DNA from: Candidatus Omnitrophota bacterium
Lineage (GTDB): Bacteria > Omnitrophota > Gorgyraeia > JAFGGP01
Assembly (NCBI GenBank): GCA_016930485.1
Contig: JAFGGP010000026.1
Location: 1-48,850 of the forward strand
DNA length: 48,850 nucleotides
Reading direction: 5' to 3'
Positions within the stretch are counted from its first letter, which is position 1. Every line of letters starts with the position of its first letter. A program made the translations under genes and the position numbers. Of the stretch, positions 16,242-45,903 are shown in pieces. The notes under the pieces were generated by a model. The model did not search any database, had not been told where the DNA came from, and saw only the letters and a list, made by a program, of their open reading frames with translations.

Positions 16242-17051
16242 CTACATACTTTTCAAATCTTCATAAGCCAATATACTTGGGATATCCTCGTTGTTATATT
16301 CTAGAAAAATATTTTCTTTTTCTTGGTTGAATCGAGGAATGCATCCTTTTGGCATAATAATATATTTTACATATTTTTCTTCAAATTTAAAATATCTATA
16401 TCCATCCTCTCGTCGATCTGTGATCATGGCTGAAAAATCTCGCTCAAACAATGAGCTTGGAATAAGTCGCCATTCTCTTTCAAAATATCCTGCTTTTATA
16501 TTTTCAAAAAACGATTCTTGCTGTGATAACAGAGTGGGGGGTGACTTGCCATATGAATAAGGAAATTCTTTATCTTTATCGTATTCTTCATAATATGAAA
16601 GAATGTGTTTCAATAACGGCAGAAGTCCACCGTTAATCGTGTATCCTTTTTCTTTATCATTCAAATCAAATTTTTCTTCACCATTTTTTATTAAAATTTC
16701 GTTTACTCTTTTCAGGATTTCGAAGACATAATCAAGATTGCCGAAAAAAGCGGGATTTTGAGAATATGCTACTGGGGTTGTATATAAATTGGTTAGATAT
16801 GCTTTTTCAAAAGAAATACCGAATTTTGAATAATTTGCACAATGAGATTCACATTCTGAAAGCGGGATATCTGTAAAGCTAATCATTTCACAGATAATAT
16901 CCTTAAAAAACTTAGACAAAAAGCTTAATTTGCAATTACCAAAACGTAATTCTTTTTTCTTCAAAATTTTTTCGGTAAATATAGAATATTGCTCTCCTTC
17001 GTCCTTCTTGCTAACTGCCCAATGAGTTAGTATATTCGATATATATGCCAT
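16242..17051 (-). CDS. AbiGi-family protein (abortive phage infection, antitoxin type)
   Basis: A 269-residue protein recognised as an AbiGi-type member by its order of motifs: YISNILTHWAV at the start, MISFTDIPLSECESH with NYSKFGISFEKAYL (about 56-86), TTPVAYSQNP, and a late KAGYFEREWRLIPS followed by VKYIIMPKG. In Lactococcus, AbiGi acts with AbiGii in abortive infection; AbiGii is not present here. No membrane segment is seen. A weak promoter (TTGACC, 17-nt spacer, TACGTT, 17073-17101) precedes it, with GAGGG about 12 nt before the ATG. The gene is much more AT-rich than its neighbours. A DUF2971-type protein is an alternative label. The activity itself is not shown by the sequence. Confidence 0.75.
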   Translation of the reverse strand: MAYISNILTHWAVSKKDEGEQYSIFTEKILKKKELRFGNCKLSFLSKFFKDIICEMISFTDIPLSECESHCANYSKFGISFEKAYLTNLYTTPVAYSQNPAFFGNLDYVFEILKRVNEILIKNGEEKFDLNDKEKGYTINGGLLPLLKHILSYYEEYDKDKEFPYSYGKSPPTLLSQQESFFENIKAGYFEREWRLIPSSLFERDFSAMITDRREDGYRYFKFEEKYVKYIIMPKGCIPRFNQEKENIFLEYNNEDIPSILAYEDLKSM

Positions 17052-20277: not shown

Positions 20278-21768
20278 CTATCCCTTTATCACCGCCAACG
20301 GCTGAAGTTTTAAGACCGGGCGGGCAAGCTGAAATCGATGCACCGCCTCGATGACCAAATCCACATCCTTATAGGCGTAGGGCGCCTGAACAGACATAGA
20401 TTCTGAGCCGACCTTAAAAAGCTTGATATCCCTCTCCTCCAGAAAGGCCTTAACCGAATCGTCGCTGTATTTTCCCCTTGCCTCCGCTTTATTAAGATAT
20501 CTGCCGGCGCCGTGATTTATCGAATAGCAAGACTCCCTAACGCCTGGCAAGGTCGTACATATATAAGAAGGCATGCCCATGGCACCGGGCATCAGTAGGG
20601 GCTGGCCTGTTTTTGAGTAAACCGTATCCCCAGGAAACGCCGACGCCGGAAGCGCGCAACTCGCCCCTGATCGATGAACCCACATGCGTTTTCCGTCGAT
20701 ACATTCTTCCTTGATGGATTCATGAGAAACATCGTAAATCAAACGCCATGTAACATCGCCGACGCACCGGCTTAAAAGTCTTCTCATGTCGTTAGCCAAA
20801 CTCAGACGGTTGACAACACAGTAATTTTCGATAGCAAGTGCGGCGCAATAATAGCGGCGTCCCTCGGCAGAGTAGGCATCGATGCCCCTCTGCGATGTAT
20901 CGCAGAAATAATCGTGCCACATTGCCCCGAGATGCATGAAACGGCGCGAAGCGGCATGAAAATATACTTTTCTTAACAGCTGCTTTTTGTTGAGGTTGCC
21001 GCATTCTCCAACATAATATTTTCCAAAACGCGGGCTCAGGGCACCCGAATCGGCATGTACCATGAAAATAATCTGGTCTTTTTTTAGTCCCCACATGTCG
21101 GCTATCGGCGCGTCATATATATCGATAACACGCTGCATCTCGATAAAATGATTGCCTATGGCACCCAGGCAGCCAAATTTTTTCAGACCGCCACTGTAGA
21201 CGTCCGAGGGAATGGCCTTTTTGACGTCTCTCTTTGAAAAATGGGTGTCCCTGAGAAAATTGCCGTTATTTTCTATATGATACAATGTCTCCCCGGGCAA
21301 GGAAAAGGCATCTAAGGCCCATTCGGCCCCGTTATATAAAATATCGTCAAGGGTGTGGCACTCAAGGCGGACAGTGGAACCCCGCACATCGGGAACCTTT
21401 TTTATGAACGTATTAAATACAGAATCGACCATCTCGGAAGATACATCCGAATAAGAAAGGGACGTCGCTATAGCCTGCATGCCGCAGCCAACACGTTTGC
21501 CTATCACCGAGGGATGGATATACGAATGAGTAAAAAATGCCATGCCGGTAGGAAACGGATGGAGCTCCTTCGAATGCAGATCCGGGAGAAGGGCAATCTC
21601 CTGAATATCGTACAACCCTGATAATCTTTCAATCTGTTCCTTCGCCCTCGGACCAGGCTCAAGCTCCGGCGTTAAAAATGACCGAATGAAAGGGCCTTTG
21701 GGCGATCTGTAGGATGTAACAGTACTTTCCTGGTGGCTGTATCCCTCACTCTTTTTATCATCGAACAT
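20278..21768 (-). CDS. rtcB: Divergent RtcB-family RNA ligase with one metal ligand changed
   Basis: RtcB seals RNA 2',3'-cyclic phosphate ends to 5'-OH ends using GTP and Mn. This 496-residue protein keeps PDLHS (62-66), Cys95, the GNHFIEMQ segment (205-212), His238, His349, the WVHRSGA and PGAMGMPSY guanylylate-binding segments, and the nucleophile-type His419 in SINHGAGR. However, the metal ligand aspartate in the usual VGxDxxCG motif is Arg92 here (IGKRVGCGM). It is also longer and clearly diverged. No RtcA or archease gene is adjacent; it lies between glycosyltransferases and an HprK-like kinase. The ATG at 21768 has AGGGG 7 nt upstream; a GTG at 21795 is possible. Confidence 0.82.
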   Translation of the reverse strand: MFDDKKSEGYSHQESTVTSYRSPKGPFIRSFLTPELEPGPRAKEQIERLSGLYDIQEIALLPDLHSKELHPFPTGMAFFTHSYIHPSVIGKRVGCGMQAIATSLSYSDVSSEMVDSVFNTFIKKVPDVRGSTVRLECHTLDDILYNGAEWALDAFSLPGETLYHIENNGNFLRDTHFSKRDVKKAIPSDVYSGGLKKFGCLGAIGNHFIEMQRVIDIYDAPIADMWGLKKDQIIFMVHADSGALSPRFGKYYVGECGNLNKKQLLRKVYFHAASRRFMHLGAMWHDYFCDTSQRGIDAYSAEGRRYYCAALAIENYCVVNRLSLANDMRRLLSRCVGDVTWRLIYDVSHESIKEECIDGKRMWVHRSGASCALPASAFPGDTVYSKTGQPLLMPGAMGMPSYICTTLPGVRESCYSINHGAGRYLNKAEARGKYSDDSVKAFLEERDIKLFKVGSESMSVQAPYAYKDVDLVIEAVHRFQLARPVLKLQPLAVIKG

Positions 21769-21804
21769 CGTAAAGCCCCTTACAAACGGCGACACCCCTG
21801 ATTG

Positions 21805-31838: not shown

Positions 31839-32084
31839 TTACCGTTCTGCCCCGACCGTTTCGGTCTGATGCACCAGATCAATTCCCCGGTGTTTATTCA
31901 GAGACCGCTTAATAAAACCCTTCTTCTCAAGGGCCAGCAAACGGTCGATGGTTCCCTTATATGAAGAGATGCCGCATCCCTCCTGAATCTCCCGGATATA
32001 AGGGGCCCGGTTGTAATGCTCGAGGTAGGTTACGATAAATTCGTAAACCGTCCTCTGCCCTTCTGTTAAATTATTGCCTATCAC
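31839..32084 (-). CDS. Stand-alone LexA-type winged-helix protein
   Basis: An 81-residue protein that consists only of a LexA DNA-binding domain: LTEGQRTVYEFIVTYLEHYNRAPYIREIQ, then GISSYKGTIDRLLALEKKGFIKR and RGIDLV align along the whole domain. The LexA peptidase half (Ala-Gly cleavage site, Ser/Lys pair) is absent. The start is the GTG at 32084, since a full AAGGAGG lies 6 nt upstream; the gene then overlaps the fusion transferase by 14 nt. A role as local regulator of the glycan genes is inferred from position only. Confidence 0.82.
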   Translation of the reverse strand: MIGNNLTEGQRTVYEFIVTYLEHYNRAPYIREIQEGCGISSYKGTIDRLLALEKKGFIKRSLNKHRGIDLVHQTETVGAER

Positions 32085-33930
32085 TGCAAACCTCCTTCTG
32101 TTGCATTTCGTTAAGTGTTTGGGTCTGCACATCGCTCTTCAGTGCCGTATGAGTAAACGAGGACGTGTGCCTCACGGTAATATTGTTTTTCCTGCACTCC
32201 TCAAAAAGCCTCGATGTTTTCGTCTGGTCCGCCGGAGACATGGCAACGATAATTTCCTGGACCCCCTCCCTCTTGGCGATAGTCACCATGTCGTCCTGCG
32301 TGCCTAAGACAGGAATCCCGTGTATCTTCTTGCCGAGTTTCTTCGAGTCGTCATCCACAAAACCTACCGGTAGATAATGCAAAAGACTGTTGTTTCGCAT
32401 GGCCCTCAGCAGCAACTCACCCATATCGCCGGCACCCATAATCAAGACGCGCCGGCTGTCTTTTTTGGGGAGTGTCGAAAATAATTCCTGAAGCAGACGC
32501 AGGGTCGTACGAGAACCCGATATAAGCAAGAAAAGCAGGAGACCGTCGATGATAAACGCGGTTCGGGAAAATCCCTCGAAGCGGAAAAGGTATACGAGCG
32601 CACAGACGGAGAGGCTTGAGCCGACGATGACCGCCTTGAATATTGCCACAATATCCTGCAGGCTCACATACCGCCACACTCCTCTATAGAGGCCGAAATA
32701 AAAGAAGGCGGGTAGTTTAATGGCTATGATAATGGGGAGCGATTTCAGTATCAGTTCGGCGTTCCCCTCGGAAATGACACCTTCATATCGCAAAAGATAC
32801 GCCGCAATATAGGAAATACATATAAGCAAAAAATCAATCCCTACCTCTACAATGCGCCGTTTGTAAAGGATCAGGCCGTTCAGGAATACATTGTTATTGC
32901 GTTTCGTCGCCTGGGCGCGTCGCACTTCTTCTTCCGAATATATCTTAACCTCCCCCAAAAACATGCCGAAGAAAAAGAGAACCACCATAAATAATCCGGC
33001 GGCGGTAAACAGCATAAAGGTATTCCAGCGCCTATTCAACAGTACAATAACCCCCGCCACGGTACTGATGGCATACAGCACGAGTACCGCCCTTCTCTCG
33101 CTTAAACCGAGGGCAACGAGACGGTGCGATGTATGATCCTTTCCTCCCTGCACGATTGATTTCCGATAGAGACGCCTCATAAACGTCACAAATATCGTGT
33201 CAAATATGGGGACACTCAGCACCATCACCGGGAAAGACAGGGTCATCATAAGGTTTGAGGCGTGCTCGAAGGAACCGAAGACGGTTGCGGCGGCCAAGGC
33301 AAATCCCAGAAAATGACTCCCGCAGTCACCCATAAAGATCTTTGCTGGGTTAACATTAAAATAAAGAAAACCGAGCGTCGAGCCGGCGATAAGGGCGGAA
33401 AGAAGGGCAACAAAGTAAGAATCGGTAGAGAGAGAATAGAGGCACAGAAAAATAGACGAAATACAGGCCACACCGGCGGACAGACCGTCCATGTTGTCCA
33501 AGAGGTTAAACGCGTTGACAATCCCAACCATCCACAGAATGGTCAGCGGCAAACCGATGAGCGGATTTATTATATTGAGATAAAACCCGAAATAGGCAAA
33601 CAGACAGGCAACGATAATCTGTCCGGCCAGTTTGGTATAGGGCGGCAAACCGACGATATCGTCCACGAGCCCCAGCGCAAAAATAACGATGCACACGGAG
33701 CAGAGCTGCCAAAACTGCGCCGTATGTTCGGCAAAGAGCCAGAAGCTAACGAGAAAACTCGCGATGATAGCCACGCCCCCCAGGAGAGCGGTGGGTCGTT
33801 TGTGCCACCTGTCCTCCTTTGGCTTTGCCACCAGTCCCTTTTTCTCGGCCAGATACTTCACTAGAGGGGTAAAGCCGAATGATAAGATCAGACTGATCAC
33901 AAACGCATGCCAGATCTGTTGTGTATTCAT
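32071..33930 (-). CDS. Fusion: WecA/MraY-type sugar-phosphate transferase plus CapD/FlaA1-like half
   Basis: A 619-residue membrane protein of two parts. Residues 1-330 form a polyprenyl-phosphate sugar-1-phosphate transferase of the WecA/TagO group with LVDDIVGL (88-95), NAFNLLDNMDGLSAG (139-153), MGDCGSHFLG (200-209) and the HTSHR loop (266-270). Residues about 350-480 are a four-helix membrane segment of the CapD/WbpM/FlaA1 type (GLYRGVWRY at 413-421), followed by a Rossmann domain (RVLIMGAGDMGELLL, 494-508) that stops before the catalytic SDR domain. The first part would start glycan assembly on the lipid carrier; the second may sense a nucleotide or CoA ligand. AAGGGG lies 8 nt before the ATG. 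Confidence 0.88.
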   Translation of the reverse strand: MNTQQIWHAFVISLILSFGFTPLVKYLAEKKGLVAKPKEDRWHKRPTALLGGVAIIASFLVSFWLFAEHTAQFWQLCSVCIVIFALGLVDDIVGLPPYTKLAGQIIVACLFAYFGFYLNIINPLIGLPLTILWMVGIVNAFNLLDNMDGLSAGVACISSIFLCLYSLSTDSYFVALLSALIAGSTLGFLYFNVNPAKIFMGDCGSHFLGFALAAATVFGSFEHASNLMMTLSFPVMVLSVPIFDTIFVTFMRRLYRKSIVQGGKDHTSHRLVALGLSERRAVLVLYAISTVAGVIVLLNRRWNTFMLFTAAGLFMVVLFFFGMFLGEVKIYSEEEVRRAQATKRNNNVFLNGLILYKRRIVEVGIDFLLICISYIAAYLLRYEGVISEGNAELILKSLPIIIAIKLPAFFYFGLYRGVWRYVSLQDIVAIFKAVIVGSSLSVCALVYLFRFEGFSRTAFIIDGLLLFLLISGSRTTLRLLQELFSTLPKKDSRRVLIMGAGDMGELLLRAMRNNSLLHYLPVGFVDDDSKKLGKKIHGIPVLGTQDDMVTIAKREGVQEIIVAMSPADQTKTSRLFEECRKNNITVRHTSSFTHTALKSDVQTQTLNEMQQKEVCSDRQ

Positions 33931-33935
33931 CAGTA

Positions 33936-34895
33936 TCACCCCTTAAAGTGTGTGATGATTGTTTCGATGATATCGTCGAGTGAATACCGCGGATTATATC
34001 CTATAGCCCCCTGAATCTTTGTGATATCGGGGCTCCGTCTCTGCATATCTTCAAAACCGAGGCCATACGCCTTTTCATAGGGGATAAACTCGATCGGCGA
34101 GGAGCTATTACTCATTTTTTTTACCTTCTCGGCAAGGTCCTTTATCGATATCTCCTCATTGCTTCCTATATTAAAGATGTCGCCCTCAGCCTCCGGACAC
34201 CTCATAAGCCCTATCATGGCATCGACCACATCGCCGACATACGTAAAGCTTCTTGTCTGATTCCCGTCTCCGTACACACAGATGGGTTTTCCGAGCAAGG
34301 CGGATTGGACAAAATTGGGCAGGACCATTCCGTACTGGCCGGTTTGGCGCGGCCCCACCGTGTTAAAAAGCCGCGCCACCACAACCGGGAGCTTTTTTTC
34401 CAGATAGTAAGCAAGCGCCAGAAACTCATCGAGGGTCTTTGAACACGCATACGCCCATCGCCGCTTTTTTACCGACCCGAGGATCCTGTTGTCGTCTTCG
34501 GCAAGTTTATGTTCAACGTGATTGCCGTAGATCTCGGAGGTAGAAGCAAGGAGTGCCTTGCGCTTATACTTATTTGCCAGCCGCAGAACCACTTCGGTCC
34601 CTTTTACATTTGTCTCGATCGTCTCGAGGGGCCGGTCCATAATAAGTTTGACGCCGACCGCGGCGGCCAGATGATAAATCTGGTCGCACTTTGCGATCAG
34701 CGCGTCCATCCTCTTCTCGTTCATCACCGAGTCAATCGCATAGTGAAAATGTCTGTGACCGATGAGGTGTTCGATATTTTTCAGACTCCCTGTGGAAAGG
34801 TTATCGATAACATATACCTCATCCCCATTTTCCAAAAGCCGCTCTGCAAGATGAGAACCGATAAATCCCGCACCGCCGGTGATCAGGATATTCAT
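33936..34895 (-). CDS. NAD-dependent nucleotide-sugar epimerase/dehydratase
   Basis: A 319-residue extended [17 protein letters not shown] (7-20), HLAAAVGVKLIMDRPLETIETNVKGT, ASTSEIYGN, catalytic Tyr149/Lys153, RLFNTVGPRQTGQYGMVLPNFV, and GNQTRSFTYVGDVVDA. Similar to UDP-glucose 4-epimerase/UXS-like proteins found in capsule clusters; exact substrate not readable. The segment FEDMQRRSPDITKI near the C-terminus is typical of this group. It overlaps the GT4 gene by 4 nt and precedes the fusion transferase by 5 nt. Confidence 0.87.
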   Translation of the reverse strand: MNILITGGAGFIGSHLAERLLENGDEVYVIDNLSTGSLKNIEHLIGHRHFHYAIDSVMNEKRMDALIAKCDQIYHLAAAVGVKLIMDRPLETIETNVKGTEVVLRLANKYKRKALLASTSEIYGNHVEHKLAEDDNRILGSVKKRRWAYACSKTLDEFLALAYYLEKKLPVVVARLFNTVGPRQTGQYGMVLPNFVQSALLGKPICVYGDGNQTRSFTYVGDVVDAMIGLMRCPEAEGDIFNIGSNEEISIKDLAEKVKKMSNSSSPIEFIPYEKAYGLGFEDMQRRSPDITKIQGAIGYNPRYSLDDIIETIITHFKG

Positions 34896-36103
34896 TGCTG
34901 TACCCCTTTTTGTATAAGCAGTTCGTGGTATAACGTCTCAACGTCATTAATGAGCCTCTCGGAAGAATACCTGCCGCTTACAGCGACACGTGCACAAGCG
35001 CCGAGTCGTGAGCGTGCCGCACCGTCGGTAAGCAGGCCTGTCAGCGCCTCCGCAAGTGATGCCGGATTCCCCGGTGGGACAATAATACCGCTTACCCCGT
35101 CTGTGATGACATCCCGTATGCCGCCGACATCGGTGGCAACTACAGCTCTGCTGCTCGCCATGGCCTCGATGACAGAAACGGGGGTGCCTTCATTATCGGA
35201 GCTGCACACGACGATATCGAGGTCGCGATAGCATGCCTCGATATCCGTGCGCCATCCGGTAAAGATCACCTGTTCGGCTATCCCGATGGCACGCGCATAC
35301 CGTTCAAGCGCCGGGCGTAATGCGCCGTCTCCTATAACAAAAAATACCATCTCTGCCCGGTTCGGCGCCCTGCTCAGCAGTATCCTGGCAGCATCCAAAA
35401 AACACCTGTGGTTCTTAATCGGGACAAGGCGGCCCACTATGCCGACCGAAAGAGCCTGTCTGGCAATACCGAACTCTTCATAGAGTGCCCCCGTCTTATC
35501 GCGGATATCCAGAAATTTCTTCAGATTGAAACCAAGCGGAATAACGTTCATCTTCTCTCCGGAGACAATACGGAACTTTTCGGAAATTTCCCGTGCCAGC
35601 GATTCGCTGACCGTTACAATGCGGTCGGTAAACAGTCCTAAAAAACGCTCGATCAAGAGAAAAGCCTTTGTCTGTAGCGGACCAAAATACCCCTTGAAGA
35701 CGTGACCGTGGAACGTATGGATTTTGACCGGTACCCCCGCGACAATGGCCGCAAGGCGTCCAATGGTCCCTGCCTTCGCCGTATGTGTGTGAATAATATC
35801 GGGGCGCTCGGTCCTGATGATGCCGAGGATTGCAAAAAATGCCCTGATGTCACTGGCGGGGTTCAACGTCCGATTGAATCCCTCGATGACCCGGAACTCC
35901 ACGCCGTGCGAGTCGGCGTAATATGACATATCACCCTCATCGGCGGTGGGTTCTCCGCAGACGAGGGTAGTCTGAAACCGCTCGGGATCGAGCCCCTTCG
36001 TTAAAAGAATGGTATGAATGGCCGGTCCCCCGATATTCAACCGGGCAATAAAACGGATTACCTTAAAGACCCTTTTATTGTTTTCTCGTGGTAAAGTCTG
36101 CAT
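34892..36103 (-). CDS. Glycosyltransferase family 4
   Basis: A 403-residue GT-B enzyme: [18 protein letters not shown] at the N-terminus, [39 protein letters not shown] and the catalytic/donor region [40 protein letters not shown] with the EX7E-type motif. It transfers a sugar from a nucleotide donor at the cytosolic side of the membrane, and similar genes (EpsF/EpsD-like) occur in capsule clusters. It overlaps the acetyltransferase gene by 29 nt. Confidence 0.92.
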
Positions 36104-43883: not shown

Positions 43884-45179
43884 CTATGTCATGCTGTCCG
43901 CATAGGCGGCCGATGTCCCTGCGGGATGGCGCCTCTCTATGGCAACGCCCAGTCCCTTTAATTTAACGTCTATCTCCTCATAACCCCTGTCTATCTGATA
44001 GACATTATCGATTTCGGTCGTGCCCCGGGCACACAGCCCTGCTATCAATACCGCCGCCCCTGCCCTCAGGTCACAGGCATGTACGCGGGCGCTCTTCAAA
44101 GGGGTCCCGCCGGCAATAATAATCGTGTTGCCCTCTCTGGAGATCCGGGCCCCCATCTTTAAGAGTTCGGTTACATAATCAAACCTGTCCCGAAAACGGA
44201 TATCGGTAATGGTGCTCACGCCTTCTGCCTGCGTGGCATACGCCGTAAACAAAGGCTGGAAATCCGAATTAATACCCGGATAAGGTCCCGTGCTTATGTC
44301 AAGGGCGGTAAGCCTCGCGGGCGCTGTAACCCGAAGCGACCTCTCGGCAACATCAAAACGCACGCCGGATTCCCTCAGGTAAATAAGGGGAATCTCCAGT
44401 GCGTCAAGAGGACACTCTGCTATTTCGATATCTCCCCGTGTCACTGCGGCAGCGATAATGAAGGTAAGTGCCTCGACGCTGTCAGGAATGATGCCGTAGC
44501 TGGTCCCGTGCAGTTCCTTGACCCCTTCTATCTCGATCCATCCGGAGCCGACAATGCGGATATCGGCACCCATCGTATTTAAAAAACGGACCAGGTCAAA
44601 TACCTCGGGCCGGGTATGGGCATTTTTGAGAACCGTCCTCCCCTCTGCGAGACAGGAGGCAATAATGGCATGTTCGGTCGCACCGGTCGTCCGCAACGGG
44701 AATGTAATCTCCGCACCCCTGAGCCTGTCGCATTCAGCCTCTAAAAAACCGTCGTCAGAAACCTTGACCGTGGCACCTAATTTTTCCAGGACCATGATAT
44801 GTAAGTCATATTTTCTTTCTCCGATCGTGCATCCGCCGGGCAAAGGTACGCGGCCTTCTCCGAACCGTGCGAGGAGGGCGCCGAGCATCAGTAAAGAAGT
44901 CCTGATGCCCTTTTCTTGATCCATTATCACCTCATAGCCTGAGATCGAAGAACCGTCGATACAGACTTCCGCGCCGCTGGCCACAACACGGACGCCTATG
45001 CTTTCAAGCATCCCGAGTTGCACCTTCACATCCTCTATCCCGGTCGGTATATTACTCAACCGGACCCCTTCGGGTGTCAAGAGAGAGGCACATAGCACCT
45101 TCAGGGCAGCATTTTTTGCCCCGCTTATTGCAACGGTTCCTTCCAATCGTCCGGGTCCGTTGATAACCAATGAGTCCAT
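43884..45179 (-). CDS. murA: UDP-N-acetylglucosamine 1-carboxyvinyltransferase
   Basis: Adds enolpyruvate to UDP-GlcNAc, the first committed step of peptidoglycan synthesis. The 431-residue protein has Lys22 and Asn23 in SGAKNAALK, Cys117 in PLPGGCTIGERKYDLH (the fosfomycin-target cysteine, with Arg122), GATEHAIIASCLAEG, GPYPGINSDFQPLF, and DLRAGAAVLIAGLCARGTTEIDNVYQIDRGYE. The ATG at 45179 follows GGAGG by 5 nt. It is separated from murB by a flippase, a deacetylase-like and a methyltransferase gene, which is an unusual setting. Confidence 0.95.
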   Translation of the reverse strand: MDSLVINGPGRLEGTVAISGAKNAALKVLCASLLTPEGVRLSNIPTGIEDVKVQLGMLESIGVRVVASGAEVCIDGSSISGYEVIMDQEKGIRTSLLMLGALLARFGEGRVPLPGGCTIGERKYDLHIMVLEKLGATVKVSDDGFLEAECDRLRGAEITFPLRTTGATEHAIIASCLAEGRTVLKNAHTRPEVFDLVRFLNTMGADIRIVGSGWIEIEGVKELHGTSYGIIPDSVEALTFIIAAAVTRGDIEIAECPLDALEIPLIYLRESGVRFDVAERSLRVTAPARLTALDISTGPYPGINSDFQPLFTAYATQAEGVSTITDIRFRDRFDYVTELLKMGARISREGNTIIIAGGTPLKSARVHACDLRAGAAVLIAGLCARGTTEIDNVYQIDRGYEEIDVKLKGLGVAIERRHPAGTSAAYADSMT

Positions 45180-45192
45180 TGTGACCTCCCCC

Positions 45193-45903
45193 TTATATCT
45201 TTTGCGCAACTACATAGACAAAACGGGAAAACCTCCGCATCCTTTCAGAAAAAGGCCTGAATTCAACCGCCTCCAGAATATTAAAAAACCGCTGAGGAAG
45301 CCGCGGGACCACGGATTTCCCCAACACTTTTCTGGTGCACACATCCCAGCACCTCTGCCAGCACGCGTTAAAAAGACTGACGCACAGACTCACCATCCCT
45401 CCTGCATATACCATATTCCTAACGGTAAAACCACTTGTCTCAAGGTTCGCCTTAAGCGCCTGAGGATCAAAATGCCTCCACTTCCCATTACCAAACAGTC
45501 TATCCGGCGCCAGCAAACTATACGGCAGTCTCCTGCGGGAGACCAGAATCACTGCGGTTCCCTTATCCTGTAAAACCCTTCTTACCTCGCTAAAAAGGCG
45601 CATCTCATCATCCTGCGAAGTACCGCCCAGCACCGCTATCATGCTGACCGCTTGAACACACGCATCCTGAACAGGGATATGCCTGATATCGGCTTGTATA
45701 TACCTCGATCGCGGTTTGAGGCTCCGTGCCCGCAGAAGTGCGCGTGCGGATATATCCATCCCGATGATATCCCGGTCCGGGAGATAGCGTTCGAGAAGGC
45801 CCTCACCGCATCCTATGTCTAAAATCCTCTTACCTGCGTACGCACGTAGAAGATCGGAGGCAACCTTCAGCTGATTATGCCGGCGAAAAGAGTGTGTATT
45901 CAT
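45193..45903 (-). CDS. SAM-dependent methyltransferase
   Basis: A 236-residue class I methyltransferase. Motif I is ILDIGCGEGLLERYL (27-41), followed by IIGMDISARALLRAR, YIQADIRHIPVQDACVQAV and VRRVLQDKGTAVILVS. The last 80 residues contain a hydrophobic patch with several cysteines (GGMVSLCVSLFNACWQRCWDVC) and may touch a membrane lipid. The substrate is unknown; position suggests a glycan or polyprenyl-linked intermediate. It lies 13 nt before murA and 8 nt after the deacetylase-like gene. Confidence 0.88.
   Translation of the reverse strand: MNTHSFRRHNQLKVASDLLRAYAGKRILDIGCGEGLLERYLPDRDIIGMDISARALLRARSLKPRSRYIQADIRHIPVQDACVQAVSMIAVLGGTSQDDEMRLFSEVRRVLQDKGTAVILVSRRRLPYSLLAPDRLFGNGKWRHFDPQALKANLETSGFTVRNMVYAGGMVSLCVSLFNACWQRCWDVCTRKVLGKSVVPRLPQRFFNILEAVEFRPFSERMRRFSRFVYVVAQKI

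Follow-up and report, generated by a model that had tools for sequence, protein, structure and literature searches.

In the window, a 48,850-nucleotide stretch of a Candidatus Omnitrophota genome (contig JAFGGP010000026.1), a single open reading frame on the reverse strand encodes a complete WecA/MraY-type phosphoglycosyl transferase followed, in the same chain, by a linker, a four-helix bundle and a PF13727 Rossmann domain (Table 1). Its GTG start overlaps the stop of the upstream SDR gene by 4 bp; the alternative in-frame ATG is the end coordinate given in the original prediction. There, the chain had been read as a WecA-type transferase joined to the membrane and Rossmann part of a CapD/FlaA1 protein lacking the SDR catalytic domain, and domain searches bore this out. 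Pfam placed PF00953 at residues 79–221 (E 2.8e-34; 118.9 bits against a cut-off of 27) and PF13727 at residues 415–590 (E 5.7e-20), and found no Polysacc_synt_2/SDR domain (PF02719) after the Rossmann domain, past which the chain terminates within about 27 residues. A monotopic catalytic core (bacterial sugar transferase domain) was also absent from the chain in Pfam and NCBIfam searches. WecA- and MraY-type NCBIfam models matched the N-terminal half and the N-terminal parts of WcaJ/WbaP/EpsB-type models matched the C-terminal half, all below their cut-offs.

Table 1. Features of the fusion locus, in window coordinates.
Feature	Position	Strand	Details
Fusion gene, 622 aa	32071..33939	-	GTG start; alternative ATG at 33930, 619 aa
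Polytopic phosphoglycosyl transferase (WecA/MraY type), residues 1-329	32953..33939	-	Pfam; PDB matches; structure match to 9zno_A, Z 32.5; conservation
Lys/Arg-rich linker (junction), residues 330-351	32887..32952	-	Predicted cytoplasmic in the fusion model
Four-transmembrane-helix bundle of CapD/FlaA1/Lg-PGT type, residues 352-488	32476..32886	-	Fusion model; structure matches
PF13727 Rossmann domain, residues 496-595	32155..32454	-	GAGDMG 502-507, GFVDDD 526-531; Pfam, structure matches
Extended SDR, 319 aa, UXS/ArnA-like	33936..34895	-	Conserved partner, directly upstream of the fusion
Glycosyltransferase, group 1, GT4 type	34892..36103	-	30 of 72 fusion loci have a homologue within 7 kb

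The predicted structure of the whole chain (pLDDT 84.7, pTM 0.80) has 15 helices, 11 in the transferase and then four, and its lowest-confidence stretch ahead of the C-terminal tail is the linker. The positively charged face of the model bears the catalytic loops, linker and Rossmann domain, so that Rossmann domain, active site and linker are predicted to share the cytoplasmic side of the membrane. WecA has 11 helices, and the N-terminal half has its fold, catalytic motifs and 11-helix topology in common with WecA, WbpL and TagO (PF00953) and with MraY/DPAGT1; the model of this half matched MraY and DPAGT1 with Z-scores of about 29–32 over 275–294 residues. The NxxNxxDxxDG and FMGD motifs, the His loop and the catalytic Asp pairs of the WecA/MraY superfamily are all present, so that the motif set is complete, as originally claimed. 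Across 70 aligned relatives, the catalytic motifs (D93-D94, N145xxD148NxD151G, FMGD205 and GGxDHxSHR at 265–273) are near-invariant, and D93, D94, N142, N145, D148, D151, D205, H269 and H272 are conserved in at least 93% of the fusion alignment. Because these motifs are near-invariant, the N-terminal half is expected to be enzymatically active. Fold and motifs are evident in the chain; from them we infer the activity, in which a sugar-1-phosphate, its exact sugar likewise a matter of interpretation, would be moved from a UDP-sugar to polyprenyl phosphate.

The C-terminal half, when folded by itself, gave the same structural matches as in the whole-chain model. In searches with either, the Rossmann domain matched 3nkl, deposited as a UDP-D-quinovosamine 4-dehydrogenase (Z 15.8–16.2, r.m.s.d. 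1.8–2.1, 100–102 residues). It also matches Rex NADH sensors, which makes NAD(H) a possible ligand. Bundle and Rossmann domain together matched WbaP (8t53_A) with Z-scores of 11.3 and 12.0 over 216 and 221 residues and r.m.s.d. values of 11.2 and 11.8 Å; the fusion and the WbaP module have the bundle-plus-Rossmann fold in common, and the large r.m.s.d. indicates that the Rossmann domain is positioned differently relative to the bundle in the fusion. The GAGxxG/GFxDDD nucleotide fingerprint is conserved among fusions. Ten Rossmann residues (G502, A503, G504, G507, G526, D529, D530, K534, G541 and G546) are 95–100% conserved in the fusions and 100% conserved in the seven CapD proteins compared, and several of them vary in Lg-PGTs. 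Among close relatives, dN/dS of the C-terminal half is mostly 0.05–0.2, similar to that of the N-terminal half. Fingerprint conservation and low dN/dS together suggest that the module is under selection and likely binds a ligand. An exception is L070 (7944–9704), in which the C-terminal half has evolved faster in comparison with L054 and L064 (dN/dS of about 0.6–0.7 against 0.3) and the module may have been replaced.

An assembly or frameshift artefact at the junction, and the lack of any relative with this architecture, had been named as what would undo the prediction. The source genome is incomplete and in 57 contigs. Both outcomes are nevertheless excluded, because the architecture runs uninterrupted through dozens of independent genomes from several phyla, some of them on contigs longer than 2.5 Mb; the relatives sought for comparison amounted to 70 distinct full-length proteins. 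Within Omnitrophota, 39 of 285 genomes carry the architecture, two of these being one partial case and one with an internal stop. Desulfarculia, the class of Dethiosulfatarculus, yielded 17 full-length cases among 63 genomes, and Rhodothermia, the class of Longimonas, yielded 19 in 195 (one cut by a contig end); further cases lie in Nitrospinota, Desulfobacteria and others. Cultured carriers are Longimonas halophila, Dethiosulfatarculus sandiegensis, Desulfocarbo indianensis and Desulfatitalea alkaliphila. Several Rhodothermia genomes contain two fusion copies, and L. halophila has a second, more divergent one (L164:7532–9937) without an SDR neighbour. A plasmid search gave no match covering more than half of the fusion protein. 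Two variants were seen beside the standard form. In an Acidobacteria relative (L087:7953–9431), the transferase and helix bundle are present without the Rossmann domain, with the same SDR upstream. In an Ignavibacteriales MAG (L074:1–3273), a 1091-aa frame combines the transferase and bundle with two Rossmann domains and a PF02719 SDR domain that appears degenerate by eye; this could be a recombination or assembly product. A search of 148 further genomes of its class yielded no such three-part form and, L074 being the sole case, we rejected a form with retained SDR as a general type.

Phylogenies of the two halves were consistent with a common history. In the tree of the C-terminal half, all 71 fusion modules fell on one side of a branch (support 86), adjoining the modules of six of seven CapD/FlaA1-type dehydratases (support 96), and the modules of Lg-PGTs formed a separate branch (support 98); on this tree, an Lg-PGT origin of this half was rejected. 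In the tree of the N-terminal half, every fusion lay in one group (support 98) that also holds L090, a sequence cut by a contig end, and L087, which has lost its Rossmann domain. Both trees are quick searches without bootstrap, some rows have long branches, and the fusion served as bait in gathering the relatives. These sequences are most simply read as the outcome of one fusion event between a polytopic transferase and the N-terminal module of a membrane dehydratase, which would then have spread. The original prediction therefore needs correcting in one respect: it spoke of two different kinds of glycan-initiation proteins, and the C-terminal half groups with the CapD/FlaA1 dehydratases, makers of sugar nucleotides, not with the initiating Lg-PGTs. 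Grouping with CapD and the missing SDR catalytic part would also fit a module that is a dispensable relic of a gene fusion within a transferase-dehydratase operon, its dehydratase part since lost. We hold this to be very unlikely, given the strong purifying selection seen in dN/dS and the conservation of the module over several phyla and its persistence in 70 or more distinct proteins.

We also considered whether a CapD catalytic domain might act in trans. In the genome of the window, PF13727 occurs in the fusion and in one other protein, which at 496 aa has the size of an Lg-PGT. At a threshold of E 1e-60, the sole PF02719 match of this genome is a 349-aa frame on a different contig, which could not accommodate the module too. 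At E 1e-60, PF02719 had no match in 7 of the 13 fusion-bearing genomes tested, several of them incomplete. We therefore rejected this candidate and conclude that the module is not awaiting a dehydratase partner.

The most conserved neighbour of the fusion is the SDR gene, with the two genes overlapping or nearly touching. An orthologue lies directly upstream in 61 of the 68 fusion loci with enough upstream sequence, and in each of the 10 Rhodothermia loci inspected, of which one is a repeat of L075. The SDR is nearest in sequence to UDP-glucuronate decarboxylases and ArnA and stays below every NCBIfam cut-off; the test of its clade is partly circular, as the comparison group was picked by score. 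Probably, it makes or modifies the UDP-sugar donor of the transferase. For Acinetobacter baumannii, a substrate inference of this kind was drawn because itrB lies near qnr and gdr (PMC3628348). Such constancy would also be expected of a docking platform, on which the module keeps the neighbouring SDR, or other enzymes of the pathway, at the transferase for direct hand-over of the UDP-sugar, with nucleotide binding secondary; the same module is indeed joined to an SDR in CapD/PglF proteins, and a similar gene order, wbpK (SDR), wbpL (transferase) and wbpM (membrane dehydratase), occurs in Pseudomonas aeruginosa (PMC6804347). There too an SDR gene directly precedes that of a polytopic transferase, and a module-bearing protein is encoded downstream of it, but the genes are separate, WbpM is a full dehydratase, and the fusion's neighbouring SDR is UXS/ArnA-like rather than CapD-like. 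Moreover, the same SDR adjoins seven of the nearest module-free transferases (L020, L101–L105 and L107), which indicates that the SDR-transferase pair is older than the fusion and exists without the module. We thus regard docking as an unlikely account, though one to be kept in mind.

Comparison with known systems sets the fusion apart in several ways. Polytopic transferases are listed as 'PGT only' (PMC10942596, Table 1), and relative to WecA, WbpL and TagO, the fusion adds a C-terminal four-helix plus Rossmann module. The Lg-PGTs WbaP and WcaJ resemble it in the kind of initiating reaction, as predicted here, and in having a four-helix bundle and PF13727 module on a transferase. However, their catalytic domain is monotopic and unrelated to the polytopic transferase of the fusion, their module is N-terminal instead of C-terminal, and by sequence the module of the fusion belongs to the CapD branch and not to theirs. 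Closest in sequence to the C-terminal half are the membrane UDP-sugar 4,6-dehydratases CapD, FlaA1, PglF and WbpM, which, unlike the fusion, have the SDR catalytic domain PF02719. For the CapD module, no ligand measurement is known to us. Of the relatives of the module, WbaP alone was found to have been measured in the open-access literature: its module is stabilized by UMP, UDP and UTP and supplies most of the dimer contacts, and UMP inhibits the full-length enzyme at an IC50 of 4.1 µM (PMC10942596).

These properties of the homologous WbaP module make ligand-controlled initiation, as originally suggested, plausible by analogy. On balance, we lean towards a fusion that acts as a polytopic initiating transferase of a surface polysaccharide, with a ligand-binding, dimer-forming module that tunes commitment of the lipid carrier. 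In this scheme the C-terminal half is a CapD/FlaA1-type module that, as the trees and domain searches indicate, was gained a single time and has been retained with no dehydratase catalytic domain. It would most likely form a dimer and bind, on the side of the membrane where the active site lies, either a uridine nucleotide (UMP, UDP or UDP-sugar) or NAD(H), thereby tuning how much lipid carrier is committed, as is thought for WbaP; the donor would come from, or be modified by, the SDR encoded directly upstream. Counting against this reading are the greater closeness of the C-terminal half to CapD than to WbaP, its loose superposition on WbaP over the residues aligned, and the Acidobacteria relative, which retains the helices but has no Rossmann domain. 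The last of these, like the part of the WbaP module in dimer contacts, would suit a purely structural add-on, a dimer former or membrane spacer without ligand control. This we consider slightly less likely than docking, as the best-conserved Rossmann residues are a nucleotide-binding type loop and the acidic residues that end strand 2.

In the 2024 structural study of WbaP, the sharing of one module by unrelated enzymes is called a puzzle (PMC10942596). A WecA-type transferase with a C-terminal CapD-type module was undescribed in the open-access papers searched, a scope outside which most subscription journals fall. More tentatively than for the tuning role itself, and with somewhat less than even confidence, we propose that the four-helix plus Rossmann unit of CapD and WbaP is a mobile regulatory module found on three unrelated classes of surface-sugar enzyme, namely dehydratases, monotopic transferases and, at the opposite end of the chain, polytopic transferases, and that in the third it would gate lipid-carrier use as a sensor of a uridine nucleotide, a UDP-sugar or NAD(H). 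The first step is worth controlling, since polyprenyl phosphate is in short supply and peptidoglycan synthesis draws on it too. Now that the module is seen in a third class of enzyme, unrelated to the other two, and close module-free transferases occur in the same gene setting, there is a natural comparison of what the module does when present and absent, and the cultured carrier species make a test practical.

Several further genes were observed around these loci. In the unfused sister group, one transferase (L104:2271–4550) shares a 760-aa frame with an O-antigen ligase/polymerase-like part (PF04932), in the same gene setting. Directly downstream of the fusion gene in the window, and overlapping its end, a small gene (about 31839–32084, reverse strand) encodes a LexA-type DNA-binding domain (PF01726, E 8.3e-13); similar genes lie near L024, L025 and L104, and it is possibly a local regulator. 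Elsewhere in the window, all on the reverse strand, an AbiGi-like gene for a putative phage-resistance antitoxin lies within the sugar cluster region (16242–17051; PF10899, E 3.3e-09), an RtcB-type RNA ligase gene is found at 20278–21795 (PF01139), and a MurA-like protein, recognized by eye from its translation, is encoded inside the polysaccharide cluster at 43884–45209.
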